Shown here piece after piece: positions 1,860 through 10,523 of a DNA stretch of 64,000 nucleotides (positions within the stretch are counted from its first letter, which is position 1; each line of letters begins with the position of its first letter). The notes below the pieces were generated by a model. That model was given only the letters and a program-made list of their open reading frames with translations. It was not told the origin of the DNA and did no database searches. The stretch is from Lentisphaera profundi (GTDB lineage: Bacteria > Verrucomicrobiota > Lentisphaeria > Lentisphaerales > Lentisphaeraceae): NCBI RefSeq assembly GCF_028728065.1, contig NZ_CP117812.1, positions 434,001 through 498,000 of the forward strand, written 5' to 3'. Made by a program: the position numbers and the translations under genes.

Positions 1860-2753
1860 GTGTATAAATACTTTGCTTATGGCTTAAATATCAGCTCAGA
1901 AATCGAGCTTAATGAACTCATTGCTAAAGATTTCTCTGAGGATGCTGTTCTTGAGATCGTTTTAGCTGAAGTTCCCGAGCAAATCACGGGTCAAGATTGG
2001 TATGGTGGTTGGTGGCAAGCTAATGATGATGAGCTTCTTTTTTATTATACAGACGTTATTAAAGCCTTGGTATCTCGCGATGGAAAAAAAATAAGTCTAG
2101 AAATCCTCACCGAAGATATGTTTCAGCTTCGTAGTTTTCTCTATAGTCGTGTTTTGAGCGCGTGCCTCTTGTTAAGGGGTTATTTTTTACTTCATGGTGC
2201 TTGTGTTAAAATTGGTGATAAAGCGGTGGGTTTTTGTGGGCCTTCAGGCGTTGGAAAATCCACCTTAGCTCTAGGCTTCATGAATCAAGGTGATACAGTT
2301 TATTCCGATGATGTGATCGCTTTGAAAATCGAAGAAGGGAAATTGATGATGTACCCCGGTTTCCCCCGTTTACGGATTACTGAAGAGACCATGAATGAAA
2401 GTTCAATGAAAGCTAAAGCATTTGAAGCTATTGATCATTTCCCCACAAAATTAAATTATGTAAAGAAGTTTAATTTTTGTACGCAAGTAATCGAATTAAA
2501 TGAACTACTTATTTTAAATCCTAGTGAATGCACAAAGCCAAATTTAAGGAATGTCAGTGGTTGGGAAAAATTAAATATTTTTGAAGAAGGGCGCTATCGA
2601 AAAACTTTAGAAAAATTGATTTATCGAGATGAAGAAATGCTCAAGAGACGCACAAAGGTCGCTAATGTCGCTAAGTGTCACTACCTAGATCGATCCAGTA
2701 ATTATTACTGTGTAGAAGATATGATCGATTATATCTTACTGGAGTTCAGTTAA
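1860..2753 (+). CDS. HPr kinase-like protein of the lasso-peptide locus (copy 1)
   Basis: The 297-residue protein is a P-loop kinase of the HPr(Ser) kinase superfamily. It shows HG at 112-113 (LLHGACV), Walker A GPSGVGKS at 127-134, and SDD at 149-151, then the PGFPRLRI segment typical of lasso- and PqqD-associated kinases. It is not a catabolite-repression HPrK: there is no HPr gene nearby and the N-terminal domain differs. In paeninodin-type lasso clusters, homologues (PadeK, ThcoK) phosphorylate the C-terminal Ser of the precursor. Both precursors found here end in Ser. The start is a GTG with AAGGG about 11 nt upstream. The gene converges with the cyclase gene, with stop codons overlapping by 4 nt. 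The substrate is inferred. Confidence 0.84.
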   Translation: MYKYFAYGLNISSEIELNELIAKDFSEDAVLEIVLAEVPEQITGQDWYGGWWQANDDELLFYYTDVIKALVSRDGKKISLEILTEDMFQLRSFLYSRVLSACLLLRGYFLLHGACVKIGDKAVGFCGPSGVGKSTLALGFMNQGDTVYSDDVIALKIEEGKLMMYPGFPRLRITEETMNESSMKAKAFEAIDHFPTKLNYVKKFNFCTQVIELNELLILNPSECTKPNLRNVSGWEKLNIFEEGRYRKTLEKLIYRDEEMLKRRTKVANVAKCHYLDRSSNYYCVEDMIDYILLEFS

Positions 2754-4360
2754 AAATCCTTGCGCTTAGTTATGTTTTTTTTTGCCGATGATTTATAGAG
2801 TTCTTCACAGGCAATAAGTGAATATGCGGGGATGAAAAGCTTGTCATCTTCACGAGCTTTTTTGAGGTAGTCCTGATCTATGAAAGGGAAGTTAAAGTCT
2901 TTGTTTCGTTCATTTTCGAGTGTATCCCAAATTTCCTGGAGTCCGGGGATGATACTGCCACCAATACCCTTGTCATAATTATAACGTATTGACGCCGGAG
3001 TAAGGTCGGCCATGGATTCATTACGAAAGAGGTAGCGATTTTGGTTGAGATAGATTTTGCAATGAGTGGGTAATGAATTAAAAAAATCTATAAGATGAAT
3101 ATCCATCAGCGGATAGCGGTATTGCAGGCCGAATTCAGCAGCTAATTGATAAGACTCTTCAAAGCGCTGAGCGGTATGGGTGCGGTTAGGGAGCAAGTAT
3201 TTGGTGTATTCGTAAGTACTTTTTCTGGGCAGGCCTAGACCCTGTTTTTGGGGAGCTAGGCGAAATCCTGGTTTAAGGAATTCTTGGTCGCCTGAACTAT
3301 CGAAGAAGGTAGGCTTGCTCTTAAAGAAGTATTTATAAATAATATGACAGAAAGTATAAGGCCAGAGCTTAGGGCGATAGTTTTTGGCTTCGCGGTAGAG
3401 GTGGGCCCATTGACGGTTTTGGATAAATTCTGCATGCGCACAGCTTGTAGCGCGTTGGCTGACGCCTTCGTCGCCACCAAAGCCAGAGAAAATGATTTCA
3501 GCTCCTGTCTTTCCTGCCGCTTGCATCAGTTGGCGAGCGTATTCATTAACCCCTGCACGGGGAGGCTGGGCAAGTACTTTCGTGACCCAGCGACAGTCAT
3601 CGGCTACATTAGCGCCTTTCTTTGTGATTAGTTGATGGCTTATCTTGGAGTGCATCTTCAAGAAATTATTTACTAAATGGCGCTCGTCATCTCCACTCTC
3701 CGCAGCATGTGTAAAAGCCTGAATGGGTGCGCCTATTTGTGAAGCGATTGCTGTTATGGAGCTTGAGTCAACTCCGCCGGTAAGTTCACAGGCTAGAGGT
3801 GTACCATCTTTGGGAAGTCTTTGTTTAACGGCGAGAGTCAGTTTTTCTCTAAAAATCCGACAAGCCTCTTCTCGTGAGATATCAATGGTTTCTGGTTTAG
3901 TCATTTCCCAATAGGGGCTGATTTTTAGCTGACCATTGTTGACTGTCAAAATGTGAGCAGGAGGCAAACGAAAAATATTTTCATAAGCGGTTTCGTGTTG
4001 CTCTTCTTCCCAACCATTTAAATAGCGTATGACCCAATTATCATTGATTTGAGCAGTGAATTCTGGGTGCTTAACTAAATTTTTGAGTTTTGTGGAATAG
4101 AAAACTTTGCCATTTTGAAAGCTGTAGAAAAAGGGGATAATCCCCAAATGATCACGGGCGCCAAAGTACTCATTGGTTTTTTGATTATGAATGAGAAAAG
4201 AGAAATCGCCATAGAAATTTTTGACACAGTCTTCTTGATGCTGCGAGTATAAGTCTAAAATGTATTTTTCTTCGTGATTGCAGAAGGCCTGAGGGAGTTC
4301 GCAGGTTAAACTGATATCGCCTTGGATGCTGATTTGGGAGTGAGAAATCATGGGTTTCAT
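2750..4360 (-). CDS. Asparagine synthetase-like lasso-peptide cyclase (C protein)
   Basis: The 536-residue protein has an N-terminal glutamine-amidotransferase-like domain (about 1-150; ARDHLGIIPFFYS) and an ATP-pyrophosphatase domain with TGGVDSSS at 194-201 and FSGFGGDEGVS near 295. It starts MKPMISHS rather than MCGI, so the Cys2 glutaminase nucleophile is missing. Lasso cyclases of the McjC family also do not need glutamine. The expected reaction is ATP-dependent adenylation of an Asp/Glu side chain in the core and macrolactam formation with the new N-terminus. The gene lies downstream of the second kinase gene and a repeat element. Context (B1, B2, exporter, precursors) makes the lasso role much likelier than asparagine synthesis. 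Confidence 0.88.
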   Translation of the reverse strand: MKPMISHSQISIQGDISLTCELPQAFCNHEEKYILDLYSQHQEDCVKNFYGDFSFLIHNQKTNEYFGARDHLGIIPFFYSFQNGKVFYSTKLKNLVKHPEFTAQINDNWVIRYLNGWEEEQHETAYENIFRLPPAHILTVNNGQLKISPYWEMTKPETIDISREEACRIFREKLTLAVKQRLPKDGTPLACELTGGVDSSSITAIASQIGAPIQAFTHAAESGDDERHLVNNFLKMHSKISHQLITKKGANVADDCRWVTKVLAQPPRAGVNEYARQLMQAAGKTGAEIIFSGFGGDEGVSQRATSCAHAEFIQNRQWAHLYREAKNYRPKLWPYTFCHIIYKYFFKSKPTFFDSSGDQEFLKPGFRLAPQKQGLGLPRKSTYEYTKYLLPNRTHTAQRFEESYQLAAEFGLQYRYPLMDIHLIDFFNSLPTHCKIYLNQNRYLFRNESMADLTPASIRYNYDKGIGGSIIPGLQEIWDTLENERNKDFNFPFIDQDYLKKAREDDKLFIPAYSLIACEELYKSSAKKNITKRKDF

Positions 4361-5529: not shown

Positions 5530-5670
5530 TTATGATTGAAGGTAGTGCTTCCCCTGCTTCCCATTTTTGCCTGGGGCGTCTTCATGGTCCTTAGCCTTTT
5601 TCCCTCCTGCCGTTAGTTTGATGTTTATAGCCCTTATGGAGGGAGGCTGCCATTTTGATTTCGTATTCAT
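5530..5670 (-). CDS. Putative lasso-peptide precursor 1 (46 aa)
   Basis: The minus-strand ATG at 5670 opens a 46-codon frame ending in TAA. The leader (residues 1-21) contains KWQPPSI, matching the aromatic-x-x-P-x-L pattern that RRE domains bind, and ends LTA, giving Thr20 at position -2. The core (22-46) would start GGKKAKDHE, so Gly1 and Glu9 can form the macrolactam (Asp7 is an alternative acceptor). It ends HYLQS, a C-terminal Ser suited to the two kinases. AAAGG lies about 10 nt upstream. The YkgJ gene ends 29 nt before the start and the second kinase gene follows. The core is Lys-rich and its tail has no obvious bulky plug apart from HYL. The call rests on motif, position and a matching second precursor. 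Confidence 0.74.
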   Translation of the reverse strand: MNTKSKWQPPSIRAINIKLTAGGKKAKDHEDAPGKNGKQGKHYLQS

Positions 5671-5699
5671 GTTGATATGCCTTTAGTCGTTTTTTTATG

Positions 5700-6191
5700 T
5701 CATTGGTGAAATGAACTAAGTCGTTCTTGATACAGTGCCCATTCTAATAATAATTGGCTATGCTTAATTTTAAAAGCTTTTGATTCTAGCGGAGTTTTAT
5801 TCTTTTCAAGAAATGAATTGAAGGCATCCTGAAGTCGGTCATTAGGATTGACGTCGGGAATCAGTTTATACAGTCGAGTTTTTTGTACTTTGAGCTGATG
5901 AATTAATGTTTCGAGCTCATCAAAGTCAATCTGGCCTTTGGTGAATTTTTTTAGTAAGCGGCATTTAAAGTCGCCACAGATATCGGGGCGTTTTTGTTCG
6001 TAAACAGTACAGCTTTGATCAAAATAGCTACAGGGTTGCTTGAACCAATAAGAGTCATCGATGATCTCAGTTTCCATTTTGGGGAGTAAGATTTCATCTT
6101 TGAAAGAGACTGCTCTTGTAAATAGGGTGCCATCGCAACAAAAACCACAATTTTTGCAGAGTTCTTGTTCTTTGTTTTCAGGTATAGCCAT
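5700..6191 (-). CDS. YkgJ-family cysteine-cluster protein
   Basis: The 163-residue protein has the PF03692-type metal-binding signature: CKNCGFCC at residues 12-19 (Cys12, 15, 18, 19), a second group PCSYFDQSCTVY, and a third RPDICGDFKC. Such proteins are thought to bind Zn or Fe; the biochemical role is not established. The C-terminal 80 residues are helical. The start lies 3 nt after the PqqD-like gene's stop and the stop is 29 nt before precursor 1, so the three genes form one tight unit. This is not a standard lasso gene. Two decayed copies of its start region lie beside precursor 2, which suggests that it travels with precursors and may take part in maturation. Confidence 0.83.
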   Translation of the reverse strand: MAIPENKEQELCKNCGFCCDGTLFTRAVSFKDEILLPKMETEIIDDSYWFKQPCSYFDQSCTVYEQKRPDICGDFKCRLLKKFTKGQIDFDELETLIHQLKVQKTRLYKLIPDVNPNDRLQDAFNSFLEKNKTPLESKAFKIKHSQLLLEWALYQERLSSFHQ

Positions 6192-6194
6192 TAA

Positions 6195-6473
6195 CTATTG
6201 TGTGATCAAAGTTTTTTTCTCGAGCATATCGAGGATAAAGCTCATGCAATCTTTTTCACATTGATCTTTTGGTACATCAAACTGCTCAAGAAGCAGGGGT
6301 ACTAGTTGACCTAAGGAAGCGGGTTCTTCGAGCAGTTCCCAAATGATGGATCCTATGGGGTCAAGTCCAAAATATTTGCCTTCTTCTATGCTCATCATCA
6401 CAATTTCATCGTCAATTTTACTTGAGATGATTTCCGGATTTCGAGCCAGGATTGTATCAGTAGTCAATTTCAT
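6195..6473 (-). CDS. PqqD-like leader-recognition protein (lasso B1, RRE domain)
   Basis: The 92-residue protein has the PqqD fold signature: an N-terminal beta segment (DTILARNPEIISSKIDDEIV), MMSIEEGKYFGLDPIGSIIWELLE, and a C-terminal winged-helix part (VPLLLEQFDVPKDQCEKDCMSFILDMLEKK). In lasso loci this stand-alone RRE binds the precursor leader and presents it to the B2 protease. No other PQQ genes are present, so it is not for PQQ synthesis. It is the first gene of the unit PqqD-YkgJ-precursor 1-kinase-cyclase. The oxygenase remnant is divergent from it, leaving 6474-6636 as the probable promoter region. Confidence 0.86.
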   Translation of the reverse strand: MKLTTDTILARNPEIISSKIDDEIVMMSIEEGKYFGLDPIGSIIWELLEEPASLGQLVPLLLEQFDVPKDQCEKDCMSFILDMLEKKTLITQ

Positions 6474-6636
6474 GTTTTTTCTATAATTTGGTTACTATAT
6501 AATTAATTGTAATATTTAAAATAAAGGTTTCAATATGTGGGCTATTAATAGAAGGTGAAATTGTAAAATTAAAAAGGGTCTTGTTTTACCTTGTCGATGA
6601 TGATATATAGTTTTTATTAAAATTTTAGGAATAAAG

Positions 6637-7325
6637 ATGCAGGACGATTTTGTTGAAGTAACCCAGCTATTTGTGGATAAGGAGATAGCTTTCCTTGTGA
6701 ATCTAGCCGAGGGGTAGCACCCGTTGCTTATCGAGTCTTTGAAAATGTATTCAAGCAGGATTTTAGGGATGCCTTATGGAAAGAACTTAGAGATAAACGT
6801 GACGCCTTTAGTGATTCGGAAGTTTATTCTACAGAAGGAGGCGCTGTGGATAAGGGAGTTCGCGATTCCGAGTGTCTTTATGGGAAATCTTTGGGTGGGA
6901 TAAAAGAAGTATTTCTAGAAAAAATCTGTGATTCTTATGAATCAGTCGAAAACTTTTTTGGTAGCAAGGCATCAAGTCTTTCTCCAAAGGAAATTGAATT
7001 AAATGTTTATCATAAAGGAGTGGGCTTTAAACGTCATACTGATAAAGGCAAAGCAGAAGGTGATATTGGAAGTCGTGAAATCACTTATCTTTATTATTTC
7101 TATAATGAGCCAAAAGCTTTTGAAGGTGGAGACTTAGTGCTCTTTGATACAAATAGAAAGACAGGAGCTTGTGGTGATGAGTTTACGAGAATTGCAATCA
7201 AAAATAATATGCTTTTATTTTTCCCTAGTGATTGTTGGAATCAAGTGACTCAGTTGAAATCGGAAGGCGCGGATTTCTATTCGGGGCGTTTCACGCTAAA
7301 TGGTTGGATGCATTCAAAGCCGTAA
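6637..7325 (+). pseudogene. 2OG-Fe(II) oxygenase (prolyl 4-hydroxylase-like), frameshifted
   Basis: An ATG at 6637 with TAGGA upstream starts MQDDFVEVTQLFVDKEIAF and stops at 6717. The homologous frame continues from about 6714 (VAPVAYRVFENVFKQDF) to 7325. One extra G in the G4 run at 6711-6714 would join the two frames. The rest matches the family: NVYHKGVGFKRHTDKG (His and Asp of the facial triad), FEGGDLVLFD, LLFFPSDCWNQV and YSGRFTLNGW. The distal metal His normally found in an xHEV motif is Asn here (WNQV). A GTG at 6846 with GGAGG upstream could give a shorter product. In other lasso loci such enzymes hydroxylate the peptide; here the gene is probably inactive, or the sequence has an error. 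Confidence 0.74.
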
Positions 7326-7524
7326 ATGGATTGTAGGTCATTGGTTTTCCTCATCTATGAGTCACTCAATAGTTCAGTATTAGTGAAAAAGAATATTCTT
7401 ATTAAGAATTCATATAAACCAGATTTGATGGCGCCAATTATGGATAAATATATTTGTCAGTACACTGCTTATTGATTATAAAAATGCGATCACGGATCAT
7501 TATTTTGGTTAAATGGGCAGAGAT

Positions 7525-7631
7525 TCATTTAAAATAATAAGAGTTGCCTTCCACCTTGCGGAATATAACTTCATCTTTAAAAGATTCGCCTCTGGTAAAT
7601 GAGGTGTTGTTACGCAATTTCATACAGCGTC
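7525..7631 (-). pseudogene. Relic of a YkgJ-type gene (N-terminal part)
   Basis: Minus-strand translation gives RRCMKLRNNTSFTRGESFKD, then EVIFRKVEGNSYYFK and a stop. This aligns with residues 12-54 of the intact YkgJ protein (TLFTRAVSFKDEILLPKM and DSYWFK). The Cys cluster is reduced to one Cys and there is no start codon in a suitable place. It sits just downstream of precursor 2, so it is a decayed paralogue and not an artefact of composition. Confidence 0.62.
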
Positions 7632-7718
7632 TTGATTGGTAGGAGTAGTTCACTTCTTTAGAAGTGAATTTGCACTGCCTATTGTTTTTAAGAGCTTCGA
7701 AAATTTGACGGTGAGGAT

Positions 7719-7877
7719 CTAGCTAGCTAAGCCAATTCCACGATCTTTAGGATCAGTACTGTCCGTTTTATTAGGTTTAAACCATGTTTCTACATGTCCT
7801 GGTACCGCTCCGCCTAAGGTGCCTGATCGGGTGTTCACAGTTGTAAGTTTGGGAGGTGTCCAAATTGATTTTTTCAT
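7719..7877 (-). CDS. Putative lasso-peptide precursor 2 (52 aa)
   Basis: The minus-strand ATG at 7877 opens 52 codons ending in TAG, with AAAGG 8 nt upstream. The leader has IWTPPKL and ends SGTL, placing Thr20 at -2. The core (22-52) starts GGAVPGHVE, so Gly1 and Glu9 are at ring distance, followed by TWFKPNK with bulky Trp/Phe that could act as plugs, then a charged tail ending GIGLAS. Thr20, Gly22-Gly23, Glu30 and the C-terminal Ser are at the same positions as in precursor 1, although the rest is unlike it. The product would be a 31-residue core, long for a lasso peptide, so trimming is possible. It lies between relics of YkgJ-type genes, downstream of the exporter. Confidence 0.76.
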   Translation of the reverse strand: MKKSIWTPPKLTTVNTRSGTLGGAVPGHVETWFKPNKTDSTDPKDRGIGLAS

Positions 7878-7954
7878 TTAAAACCTTTCGAGTTTGAGCG
7901 TTTTTTTGTATTATTACGATGATAGCGTGGTATGTTTGATAAATTTATCATCAT

Positions 7955-8269
7955 TCAAAGTTGCCCGAGAATGCTATTCACAAGAGTTAGCTCTGATGAA
8001 TGAGGTGCCGTAGCAGCGAAGCCACTTCTATTACAGCGCTCTTGCTCTAGGTTACGTTCGATATATTTATTTTCTTTGGGAAGGTATGAAATGAATTTTA
8101 GTTCTTGGCCGTATTGACACATGGCTATTTGATGAACTAAAAAATTGATATTATCTCTTAAATCTTGAAAAGCTTGAGTCAATTTCTCGATGTTCGGCGT
8201 CAATATTGTATCCGTTAGCACGTCAGGCTGGGCTATGGTTTCAATATGAAGTTTTGTCAGTCTAGTCAT
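7955..8269 (-). pseudogene. Decayed PqqD/YkgJ-like reading frame upstream of precursor 2
   Basis: A 104-codon frame with no clear family over its first 75 residues. Near the end it reads EQERCNRSGF, like EQELCKNCGF of the intact YkgJ. One frame over, the DNA continues C-Y-G-T-S-F-I-R-A-N-S-C-E then a stop, like CCDGTLFTRAVS. This indicates a frameshift within an old YkgJ copy. The segment VLTDTILTPNIE loosely resembles KLTTDTILARNPE of the PqqD-like gene, and the upstream sequence after CATGTTTTT is also similar. I read it as remnants of a second PqqD-YkgJ unit preceding precursor 2. A short functional protein cannot be excluded. Confidence 0.5.
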
Positions 8270-8308: not shown

Positions 8309-10132
8309 TCATTCTGAATTGAGTAAGGATGAATAAGGACCGCTTGCCTTAATTAATTCTTGGTGGGAGCCGGATTCGACTATTTTTCCTTGGTCGAGGA
8401 CGAAGATTTGATCGGCGTCTTTGATGGTGCTGAGATTGTGGGCAATGATGAGGGTGATGATATCTTTTTTATTTTCGAAAACGGCTTTTTGGATGAGGCA
8501 CTCATTGATGGCGTCCAAATGGCTTGTCGCTTCATCTAAGATAATGAGGTCAGCATTGGCCGCAAAAGCACGAGCAAGGCAGAGGCGTTGTTTTTGGCCG
8601 CCAGAGAGTTTGATGCCATTTTCCCCCACATAAGAATCGAGACCCAGCTCGAGGCTTTGAATGAAATCAAAAATTTGAGCCCGTTTACAGAGCTTGAGCA
8701 ATTGTTCGTCATTCAGGTTTGCATCAGCATAACGGATGTTATCGCGAATTGTGCCATCGAAGACGAAGCTATTCTGATGAACAATGGCGAGATGATTGAT
8801 GTAATCATCTTTGTTGAGTTCTTGGATGTCGCTATTATTGACGAGAATTTGTCCTGAAGAGGGCTGTTGGAAGCCACAGATGAGATCGGCGAGAGTACTT
8901 TTCCCCGAGCCACTAGAACCCACAAGAGCGTAAGTCTTTCCTCTTTCCATAGAGAAAGAAATATGGCTGAGTGTGGGAGTGTCTTTGATGTATTCAAAGG
9001 ATAAATCCTTGATTGCGACCGTTTCGATTTTTGAATTCAACGTGGCTTTGTTTGAGTCGGGAGGATTATCAAGATCTTCTTCTAAAATGAGGTGATAGCG
9101 CTCAAGGCAGGTGAGACCCGACTGAGTCGCACTAATAGAAGAAAGGATATTAAAGATAGGACTCATCAGCTGAGCGGCAAAAAATTGTACCACGACTAAT
9201 TCACCTAGGCTCATTTTTCCACGAATGATCATAATGGCGCCACCCGCGAGGATGAGTGAAGCAGCAATGGCGTGCATAAAGGACCAGAGGCTATGAATTC
9301 CTTGGATTTGCAGGTTTGATTTGATCTTGGTGTTATTAAGGTCGCGATGACGCTGGCTGTGATTCTCAATTTCTTGTTCTTCTTTAGCATGGGAACGGAC
9401 TGTGCGAATACCTTGGAAGATCTCGCTGAGGAAGCCATGGATGACCGCTTGCTTCTCGTGCATTTCTTGGTAGAGGGGGCGAGTTTTTCGGGTGAGGTAC
9501 ATGCAGAGCACTGTCAAAACGCCAAGAATGAGGATCATGCCAAGTGAAATCATGGGGCTCAAATAAAAACAATATGCGAGAATGATAAAAAGTCTTAGTA
9601 GTGCATTAGCGGGGGTGAGGATGATTTGATTCGCTAAAGAAGTGATTTGGCTGATATCATTGGTGAAGCGTGAGATCAGTTCACCCGATTTGGTTTTGTT
9701 GAAAAAATTGAGGGGCAAGTGAAGCACGTGGCGATAGAGCTTGTCTTGTAAGCTATGGTTAAAGGAAGTTCGAAAGCGAAGTTGGATATGCTTTTGAATA
9801 ATGCCGAGAACTTCACTCAAAGTATAAGCAGCGAAAAGCGCGGCGGCCCAGAGCAGGATCGCATTTTCGCATTCTTGTGCGGGAAGCGCATTTTCACCCG
9901 TGAGGTATTGATCGACAATTTTCCCGCTGATTAATGCGGGGATAAGGCCGAGGGCATTGGCAATTATCGAGAGCAGTAGTGAGCCGCTCATTATCTTTTT
10001 GTAGGGAGCTATCTGCTCAAAGAAAGCTTTCATTTGATTGAGGAAGCTTTTGCTAAAGAAAAATTCTAGTCGTTTACGCATCGTGGGGCTCATGGGTGAA
10101 GCTATTGATAACGGTGTATTGTTCGATGCCAT
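8309..10132 (-). CDS. ABC transporter, fused membrane and ATPase domains (lasso exporter, D protein)
   Basis: The 607-residue protein is a half-size exporter. The N-terminal membrane domain has about six helices (residues 45-330), with the coupling motif LPLNFFNKTKSGELISRF. The ATPase domain begins near 365: Walker A GSSGSGKST, signature LSGGQKQRL, Walker B ADLIILDEAT, D-loop SHLD and the switch His in IAHNLS. It is a lipid A/MsbA-type exporter, the usual partner for lasso peptides (McjD-like), giving export and self-immunity. The first ATG at 10132 overlaps the B2 gene by 59 nt. An internal ATG at 10081 overlaps by only 8 nt and is an equally good start. No peptidase C39 domain is present. 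Confidence 0.9.
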   Translation of the reverse strand: MASNNTPLSIASPMSPTMRKRLEFFFSKSFLNQMKAFFEQIAPYKKIMSGSLLLSIIANALGLIPALISGKIVDQYLTGENALPAQECENAILLWAAALFAAYTLSEVLGIIQKHIQLRFRTSFNHSLQDKLYRHVLHLPLNFFNKTKSGELISRFTNDISQITSLANQIILTPANALLRLFIILAYCFYLSPMISLGMILILGVLTVLCMYLTRKTRPLYQEMHEKQAVIHGFLSEIFQGIRTVRSHAKEEQEIENHSQRHRDLNNTKIKSNLQIQGIHSLWSFMHAIAASLILAGGAIMIIRGKMSLGELVVVQFFAAQLMSPIFNILSSISATQSGLTCLERYHLILEEDLDNPPDSNKATLNSKIETVAIKDLSFEYIKDTPTLSHISFSMERGKTYALVGSSGSGKSTLADLICGFQQPSSGQILVNNSDIQELNKDDYINHLAIVHQNSFVFDGTIRDNIRYADANLNDEQLLKLCKRAQIFDFIQSLELGLDSYVGENGIKLSGGQKQRLCLARAFAANADLIILDEATSHLDAINECLIQKAVFENKKDIITLIIAHNLSTIKDADQIFVLDQGKIVESGSHQELIKASGPYSSLLNSE

Positions 10133-10523
10133 TATCGCCAGTGACGATGTATTGATGATGACGCAACCAGGCGTGAGCTTTCATTTCTCCCTTTTCTTTG
10201 AGTAGGCCAAGATAAAGGGTGGAAGAAAGATTTTTTTTATTGAGAATCCTGTGGCCGGCAATGGCCTGTGGGAAACACACACATTTCCAGGGGAGAAGTT
10301 CAGCAATGCGAAAGATGAGTCGCTTGGTCATTTTGATTTCAGGACTTATTTCTCGGCTTGCTTTCGAAGACTCGGATTCTTTCTCGCCGAATTTTCCCGC
10401 AAGAGTTTTAAATTCTTGACTTTTTAACTGCATGCAAGCCAGGCAAAGTTCCAAAAAAACTTCTAGTGCTAAAAGTTTAATTTTCATGGGGAGTTTGATG
10501 AAGGTGAGAAGGCTTCTGAGCAT
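10074..10523 (-). CDS. Lasso-peptide leader protease (B2, transglutaminase-like)
   Basis: The 149-residue protein matches the PF13471 lasso B2 family: hydrophobic N-terminal part, WKCVCFPQAIAGHRIL with the likely nucleophile Cys83, STLYLGLLKEKGEMKAHAWL with catalytic His117 in AHAW, and an acidic residue near 130 (VTGD). It should cleave the leader two residues after the conserved Thr once the PqqD-like B1 presents the peptide. It is the first gene of the leftward operon B2-exporter. The separate B1 and B2 proteins are typical of Gram-positive and some other lasso clusters, in contrast to the fused McjB. The upstream gap to hisS should carry its promoter. Confidence 0.86.
   Translation of the reverse strand: MLRSLLTFIKLPMKIKLLALEVFLELCLACMQLKSQEFKTLAGKFGEKESESSKASREISPEIKMTKRLIFRIAELLPWKCVCFPQAIAGHRILNKKNLSSTLYLGLLKEKGEMKAHAWLRHHQYIVTGDNGIEQYTVINSFTHEPHDA

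Follow-up and report, generated by a model that had tools for sequence, protein, structure and literature searches.

Two short open reading frames in the window (the whole 64,000-nucleotide stretch of DNA analysed here, from a marine Lentisphaera) are, with high confidence, genuine lasso peptide precursor genes, A1 and A2, both served by one enzyme set. Judged from its sequence, the locus is a lasso peptide cluster by every defining feature tested, and a threaded macrolactam is the predicted product of A1 and A2 with the cluster enzymes. The original prediction had read the two frames as lasso precursors, and the genes among which they sit, encoding B1, B2, a cyclase, an exporter and HprK-like kinases, support that reading. 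The two precursor genes and their upstream elements are as follows.

7719..7877, minus strand: lasso precursor A1, 52 codons, with leader MKKSIWTPPKLTTVNTRSGTL (21 residues) and core GGAVPGHVETWFKPNKTDSTDPKDRGIGLAS (31 residues); predicted ring Gly1-Glu9
7884..7888, minus strand: AAAGG, candidate ribosome-binding site of A1, 6 nt before the ATG
5530..5670, minus strand: lasso precursor A2, 46 codons, with leader MNTKSKWQPPSIRAINIKLTA (21 residues) and Lys-rich core GGKKAKDHEDAPGKNGKQGKHYLQS (25 residues); predicted ring Gly1-Glu9
5680..5684, minus strand: AAAGG, candidate ribosome-binding site of A2, 9 nt before the ATG

The translations confirm that both frames carry WxPP, Thr20, Gly22-Gly23, Glu30 and a final Ser, as had been claimed. 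The known lasso leader motif, [Y/W]xxPx[LVIAFY] (PMC13381572), is represented in its [Y/W]xxPx[hydrophobic] form (RRE motif) by WTPPKL and WQPPSI, and the Trp lies at -16 in A1 and at -15 in A2. Both cores begin with a small residue, Gly1, and have the acidic residue expected at positions 7-9, Glu9. The AAAGG that had been cited as a further shared feature is indeed upstream of both genes, but it carries no weight as evidence because the relatives' precursors do not keep it. A promoter scan found fewer sites than in shuffles.

Read down the minus strand from 10523, the gene order is B2, ABC exporter, 104-residue ORF, A1, YkgJ remnant, B1, CxxCxxCC protein, A2, K2 and cyclase, which places A2 inside the operon, with YkgJ on one side and the kinase on the other. 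On the plus strand, a decayed 2OG oxygenase gene lies between the YkgJ remnant and B1, and K1 lies beyond the cyclase, beside a cupin gene. The cluster adjoins hisS.

10074..10523, minus strand: B2, leader peptidase (transglutaminase-like); NF033537, 69.3 bits (cut-off 33)
8309..10132, minus strand: D, ABC exporter; PF00664 and PF00005; 72-73% identity in both relatives
7955..8269, minus strand: 104-residue ORF, truncated copy of a 329-residue protein; first 74 residues 61% identical
7525..7653, minus strand: remnant of a second YkgJ copy; reads SFTRGESFKDEVIFRKVEG, compare TLFTRAVSFKDEILLPKME
6639..7325, plus strand: decayed 2OG-Fe(II) oxygenase gene; PF13640, 55.7 bits for 6846-7325
6195..6473, minus strand: B1, PqqD-type RiPP recognition element; NF033536, 80.2 bits (cut-off 80); PF05402, 62.9 bits
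5700..6191, minus strand: CxxCxxCC (YkgJ-like) protein, 3 nt after B1; PF03692, 24.3 bits
4511..5350, minus strand: K2, HprK-related kinase in the operon; TIGR04355, 29 bits; H-GxSGxGKS-DE
2750..4360, minus strand: C, lasso cyclase (asparagine-synthase-like); PF00733; NF033535
1860..2753, plus strand: K1, HprK-related kinase convergent with C; PF07475, 27.7 bits; TIGR04355, 39.7 bits; H-GxSGxGKS-DD intact

B1 also matches the lasso PqqD chaperone of PDB 9x90 (E=3.9e-17), and Cys83 and His117 (AHAWL) of B2 are unchanged in four species. The best NCBIfam match of the cyclase is the lasso cyclase family NF033535, at 226 bits and under the cut-off of 525; its ATP motifs, GGxDS and SGFGGDE, are invariant in the comparison.

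The agreement between A1 and A2 was set against a null model of 2,576 order-2 Markov copies of the 64-kb window. The full rule (WxxPx[LIV], Thr at -2, [G/A/S]1-Gly2, Glu9 and a final Ser) occurred twice in the window versus 0 times in the 2,576 random 64-kb sequences, and dropping the final Ser from the rule gave three matches in the random set (0.0012 per 64-kb sequence). The position rule was worded only once the precursors had been seen, and three further checks therefore matter: leave-one-out profiles, a whole-genome profile search and a DNA pattern. When left out, each window frame scored ahead of all non-precursors among 6,547 frames (A1, E=2.7e-5; A2, E=0.0015). Profiles built from just the two window frames were poor at recovering the relatives' precursors. 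Outside the clusters, the whole-genome profile search returned one best new match, located in the window's own genome, that agrees with the rule at all positions and has Ser as its last residue. The DNA pattern matched eight times in three genomes (16.7 Mb), three times with in-frame stops; the five stop-free matches (A1, an orphan, ara1, ara2 and mar1) are all short ORFs with a terminal Ser, four in clusters and one the orphan. A2 falls outside this fixed pattern, its spacing being one residue shorter. The reversed pattern gave no match in the same three genomes, and a profile search over 388 genomes of the phylum found nothing else better than 7e-4. A1 is thus supported by motif and null model, profile and genome-wide DNA pattern, and A2 by motif and null model and by profile.

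Two genomes of the same genus, L042 (Lentisphaera marina) and L043, hold an orthologous cluster beside hisS, at 62-78% identity. Their operon runs without interruption as B2-D-B1-YkgJ-K-C and contains no precursor; precursors built to this plan are found outside the operon.

L043:405-548: precursor ara1, same plan
L043:863-1021: precursor ara2, same plan
L042:13011-13160: precursor mar1, same plan
L042:11814-11951, minus strand: mar2, a partial fit that lacks Gly2 and ends in Lys; adjoins an intact 2OG-Fe(II) oxygenase gene (L042:12028-12888, minus strand)

A kinase-lasso cluster in G282 (L073), from another family of the class, has the precursor ...KKYTPPELIKLSFDKTE/GGWIHWWYEDSPWFQS, with Tyr for Trp in the motif. 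The comparison with related Lentisphaera genomes that had been suggested as a check found the Thr, Gly and Glu positions recurring there in other precursors. Because precursors of the same plan were found in other genomes, the position rule of the original prediction had predictive value. Its further claim, that processing and ring positions are kept while cores diverge, extends to two congeners, one genome of another family and one orphan in the same genome. The cluster, the motif and this recurrence can be read directly from the DNA. Thr at -2 is present in 8/8 precursors, encoded variously as ACC, ACG, ACT and ACA; the codons AGC, AGT, TCA and TCC are all used for the final Ser. Since synonymous codons differ between precursors at the Thr, Gly, Pro and Ser positions, the agreement is not explained by recent copying; it is residues, not DNA, that are retained. 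Searches by tblastn with A1 and A2 found no ortholog of either core in the two congeneric clusters, and tblastn of A1 against 60 relatives and plasmids was likewise negative. Low-similarity lasso-like loci elsewhere in the phylum (L065-L078) mostly had no clear precursor. Additionally, a truncated precursor leader, MKKKWLKPTVISLSR followed by a stop, lies at L043:2684-2729 on the plus strand beside an IS element/transposase gene. In this relative only, a PRMT/PrmA-like methyltransferase gene (L043:10866-12065, minus strand) lies between hisS and B2, and the core of the second precursor there is Arg-rich.

We are slightly less sure of A2 than of A1 as a lasso precursor, its Lys-rich core having no bulky plug residues near the ring and no bulky tail residue until the His-Tyr at its end. 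It is unlikely, in our judgement, that only A1 functions as a precursor, with A2 a degenerating copy, or one that does not thread, whose Lys-rich core the enzymes do not accept. Such a reading would draw on the composition of the core, on a Trp-Thr interval shorter by one residue, on a leave-one-out score that is the weakest of the window pair, and on the decayed genes nearby (2OG oxygenase, second YkgJ). However, A2 retains every diagnostic residue, including a terminal hydrophobic-x-Ser, has an AAAGG, and occupies a mid-operon position between YkgJ and kinase; furthermore, the G282 precursor has the same short spacing.

In known systems, phosphorylation takes place on the C-terminal Ser, a residue conserved in clusters that include a kinase gene (PMC9266682). 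In our set it is found in 7/8 precursors, both window ones included, and the same seven share an [L/I/V/F]-x-Ser ending, a feature absent from the original prediction that is a possible kinase determinant. Because the final Ser and the kinases occur together, the predicted +80 Da form of the products is sensible. K1 has the complete His/Lys/Asp-Asp set and is 65-72% identical in the relatives. In all three genomes, K2 carries Asp-Glu in place of the Asp-Asp of characterised kinases. A kinase scan of genome contigs gave matches solely in Lentisphaera marina. The departure of K2 from the canonical pair, the location of K1 outside the operon with a cupin gene, and the precedent of BsfK, which phosphorylates Ser3 (PMC10368454), would all be compatible with real precursors whose C terminus is not phosphorylated, the kinases having a different target or modifying some other residue of the core. 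This is improbable, as the C-terminal Ser is kept in those seven precursors despite otherwise unlike tails, while no Ser near the ring is conserved in the eight.

The two frames are best read as precursors of phosphorylated lasso peptides akin to paeninodin, with a system expected to work like the paeninodin kind. The clusters of paeninodin (Paenibacillus dendritiformis), ThcoK, SyanK and PsmK similarly combine split B1/B2, a cyclase, an ABC exporter and an HprK-like kinase with a C-terminal Ser and a Trp in the WxxP leader motif. In contrast, gene order in the paeninodin kind is C-A-K-B1-B2-D (PMC5067487), whereas here it is B2-D-A1-B1-YkgJ-A2-K-C, and the present system has in addition a YkgJ-like gene, a second kinase, scattered precursors and cores of 21-32 residues. 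The Trp leaders had raised the suspicion of a paeninodin-type Gly signature in B1 (LppB N33 position; PMC13381572), but alignment with PbaB1 and LppB shows Asp38, and Asp75, where PbaB1 has Gly42 and Gln79. Because B1 lacks the Gly signature, the cluster is not filed in the paeninodin subfamily. B1 also aligns with TbiB1 (PDB 5v1u, E=3.1e-15), which likewise has YFGLD at the leader pocket. The Bradymonas bsf cluster (BsfK) is likewise a kinase-bearing lasso cluster outside the classical phyla, but has Ile at -2, phosphate on Ser3 and a C-terminal Asp, in contrast to Thr at -2 and a terminal Ser here. Canucin (CanE 2OG hydroxylase) offers a precedent for a 2OG-Fe(II) oxygenase gene beside lasso genes; unlike canucin, the window copy is decayed, and the intact copy in L042 adjoins mar2, whose product is possibly hydroxylated.

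By analogy with paeninodin and related systems, from which each enzymatic step is taken, B1 would bind the leader through WxxPx[L/I] and an HprK-like kinase would probably phosphorylate the linear precursor at its C-terminal Ser. B2 would cleave after the residue next to Thr(-2), the cyclase would join the Gly1 amino group to Glu9 around the threaded tail, and the ABC protein would export the lasso product. The cores themselves vary freely, but the anchor in the leader, the cleavage site, the ring residues and the Ser at the end are retained.

The orphan precursor, MKKIADRAGSKRQWMKPTVTSLDLLLNTY/AGRREADIEKVSPGVSKKIRS (G000:C2:2199919-2200005; L091:1459-1611, minus strand), lies on the same chromosome, 1.76 Mb from the cluster. 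Its start overlaps the stop (ATGA) of a gene for a 1,238-residue DUF4347/FG-GAP exoprotein, and in the L043 genome a related FG-GAP protein gene (L079:11561-15048) is followed by ara1 at a distance of 135 bp. At E <= 1e-20, those two are the only members of the FG-GAP family in the three genomes, and the two linkages hint at a functional tie between precursor and exoprotein but do not prove it. ISL3-like transposases adjoin both FG-GAP/precursor pairs. The distant orphan and the relatives' operons without an internal precursor might hint that A1 and A2 are chance ORFs within a lasso cluster whose true precursors lie elsewhere, but this is most improbable given two full motif matches in the window against 0/2,576 random sequences and a whole-genome DNA pattern that yields almost nothing else. 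The sequence rule finds precursors with unlike cores, including one invisible from the cluster itself.

In each of the three genomes, the YkgJ-like gene is fixed between B1 and the kinase. Homologues elsewhere in the phylum, among those examined, were never in a lasso cluster, and the embedded gene had no counterpart in the lasso literature searched. Its structure model is poor (pLDDT 59). The second copy, a remnant in the window, is intact at L042:14610-15116. The decayed oxygenase gene has an open catalytic domain and a 5' part that is shortened and out of frame; an intact homologue is the mar2 neighbour noted above. The 329-residue protein is full-length at L042:13514-14503, matched no Pfam or NCBIfam family, and gave a medium structure model (67.7) with no fold match in the PDB better than E 0.3. 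Four further genomes of the phylum have homologues of it, which adjoin a secreted protein of about 200 residues, mostly with a PEP-CTERM-like end. More tentatively, one immobile lasso enzyme set may serve shifting precursors, some encoded at a distance, in trans, and co-translated with very large DUF4347/FG-GAP exoproteins, and B1 and the kinase may depend on the CxxCxxCC protein, a partner new to the description of such systems; we hold this broader scheme to be possible but doubtful.

No report of a kinase-bearing lasso pathway in Lentisphaera/Lentisphaerota was found in the open literature searched. Several precursors per cluster with divergent cores and one leader motif are known (PMC13381572). 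The system is thus a lasso system of known kind, new to Lentisphaerota in the literature searched, and its variant traits are the YkgJ gene fixed between B1 and kinase, the two kinases, and precursors that are scattered, not operon-fixed. Together, the results place a complete kinase-bearing lasso pathway in Lentisphaera and supply a natural set of at least seven Ser-ending cores for the study of kinase specificity. Lasso mining usually searches beside the enzymes only, and the orphan, which lies 1.76 Mb from the cluster and is coupled to a surface-type protein, indicates that substrates may be missed in this way.
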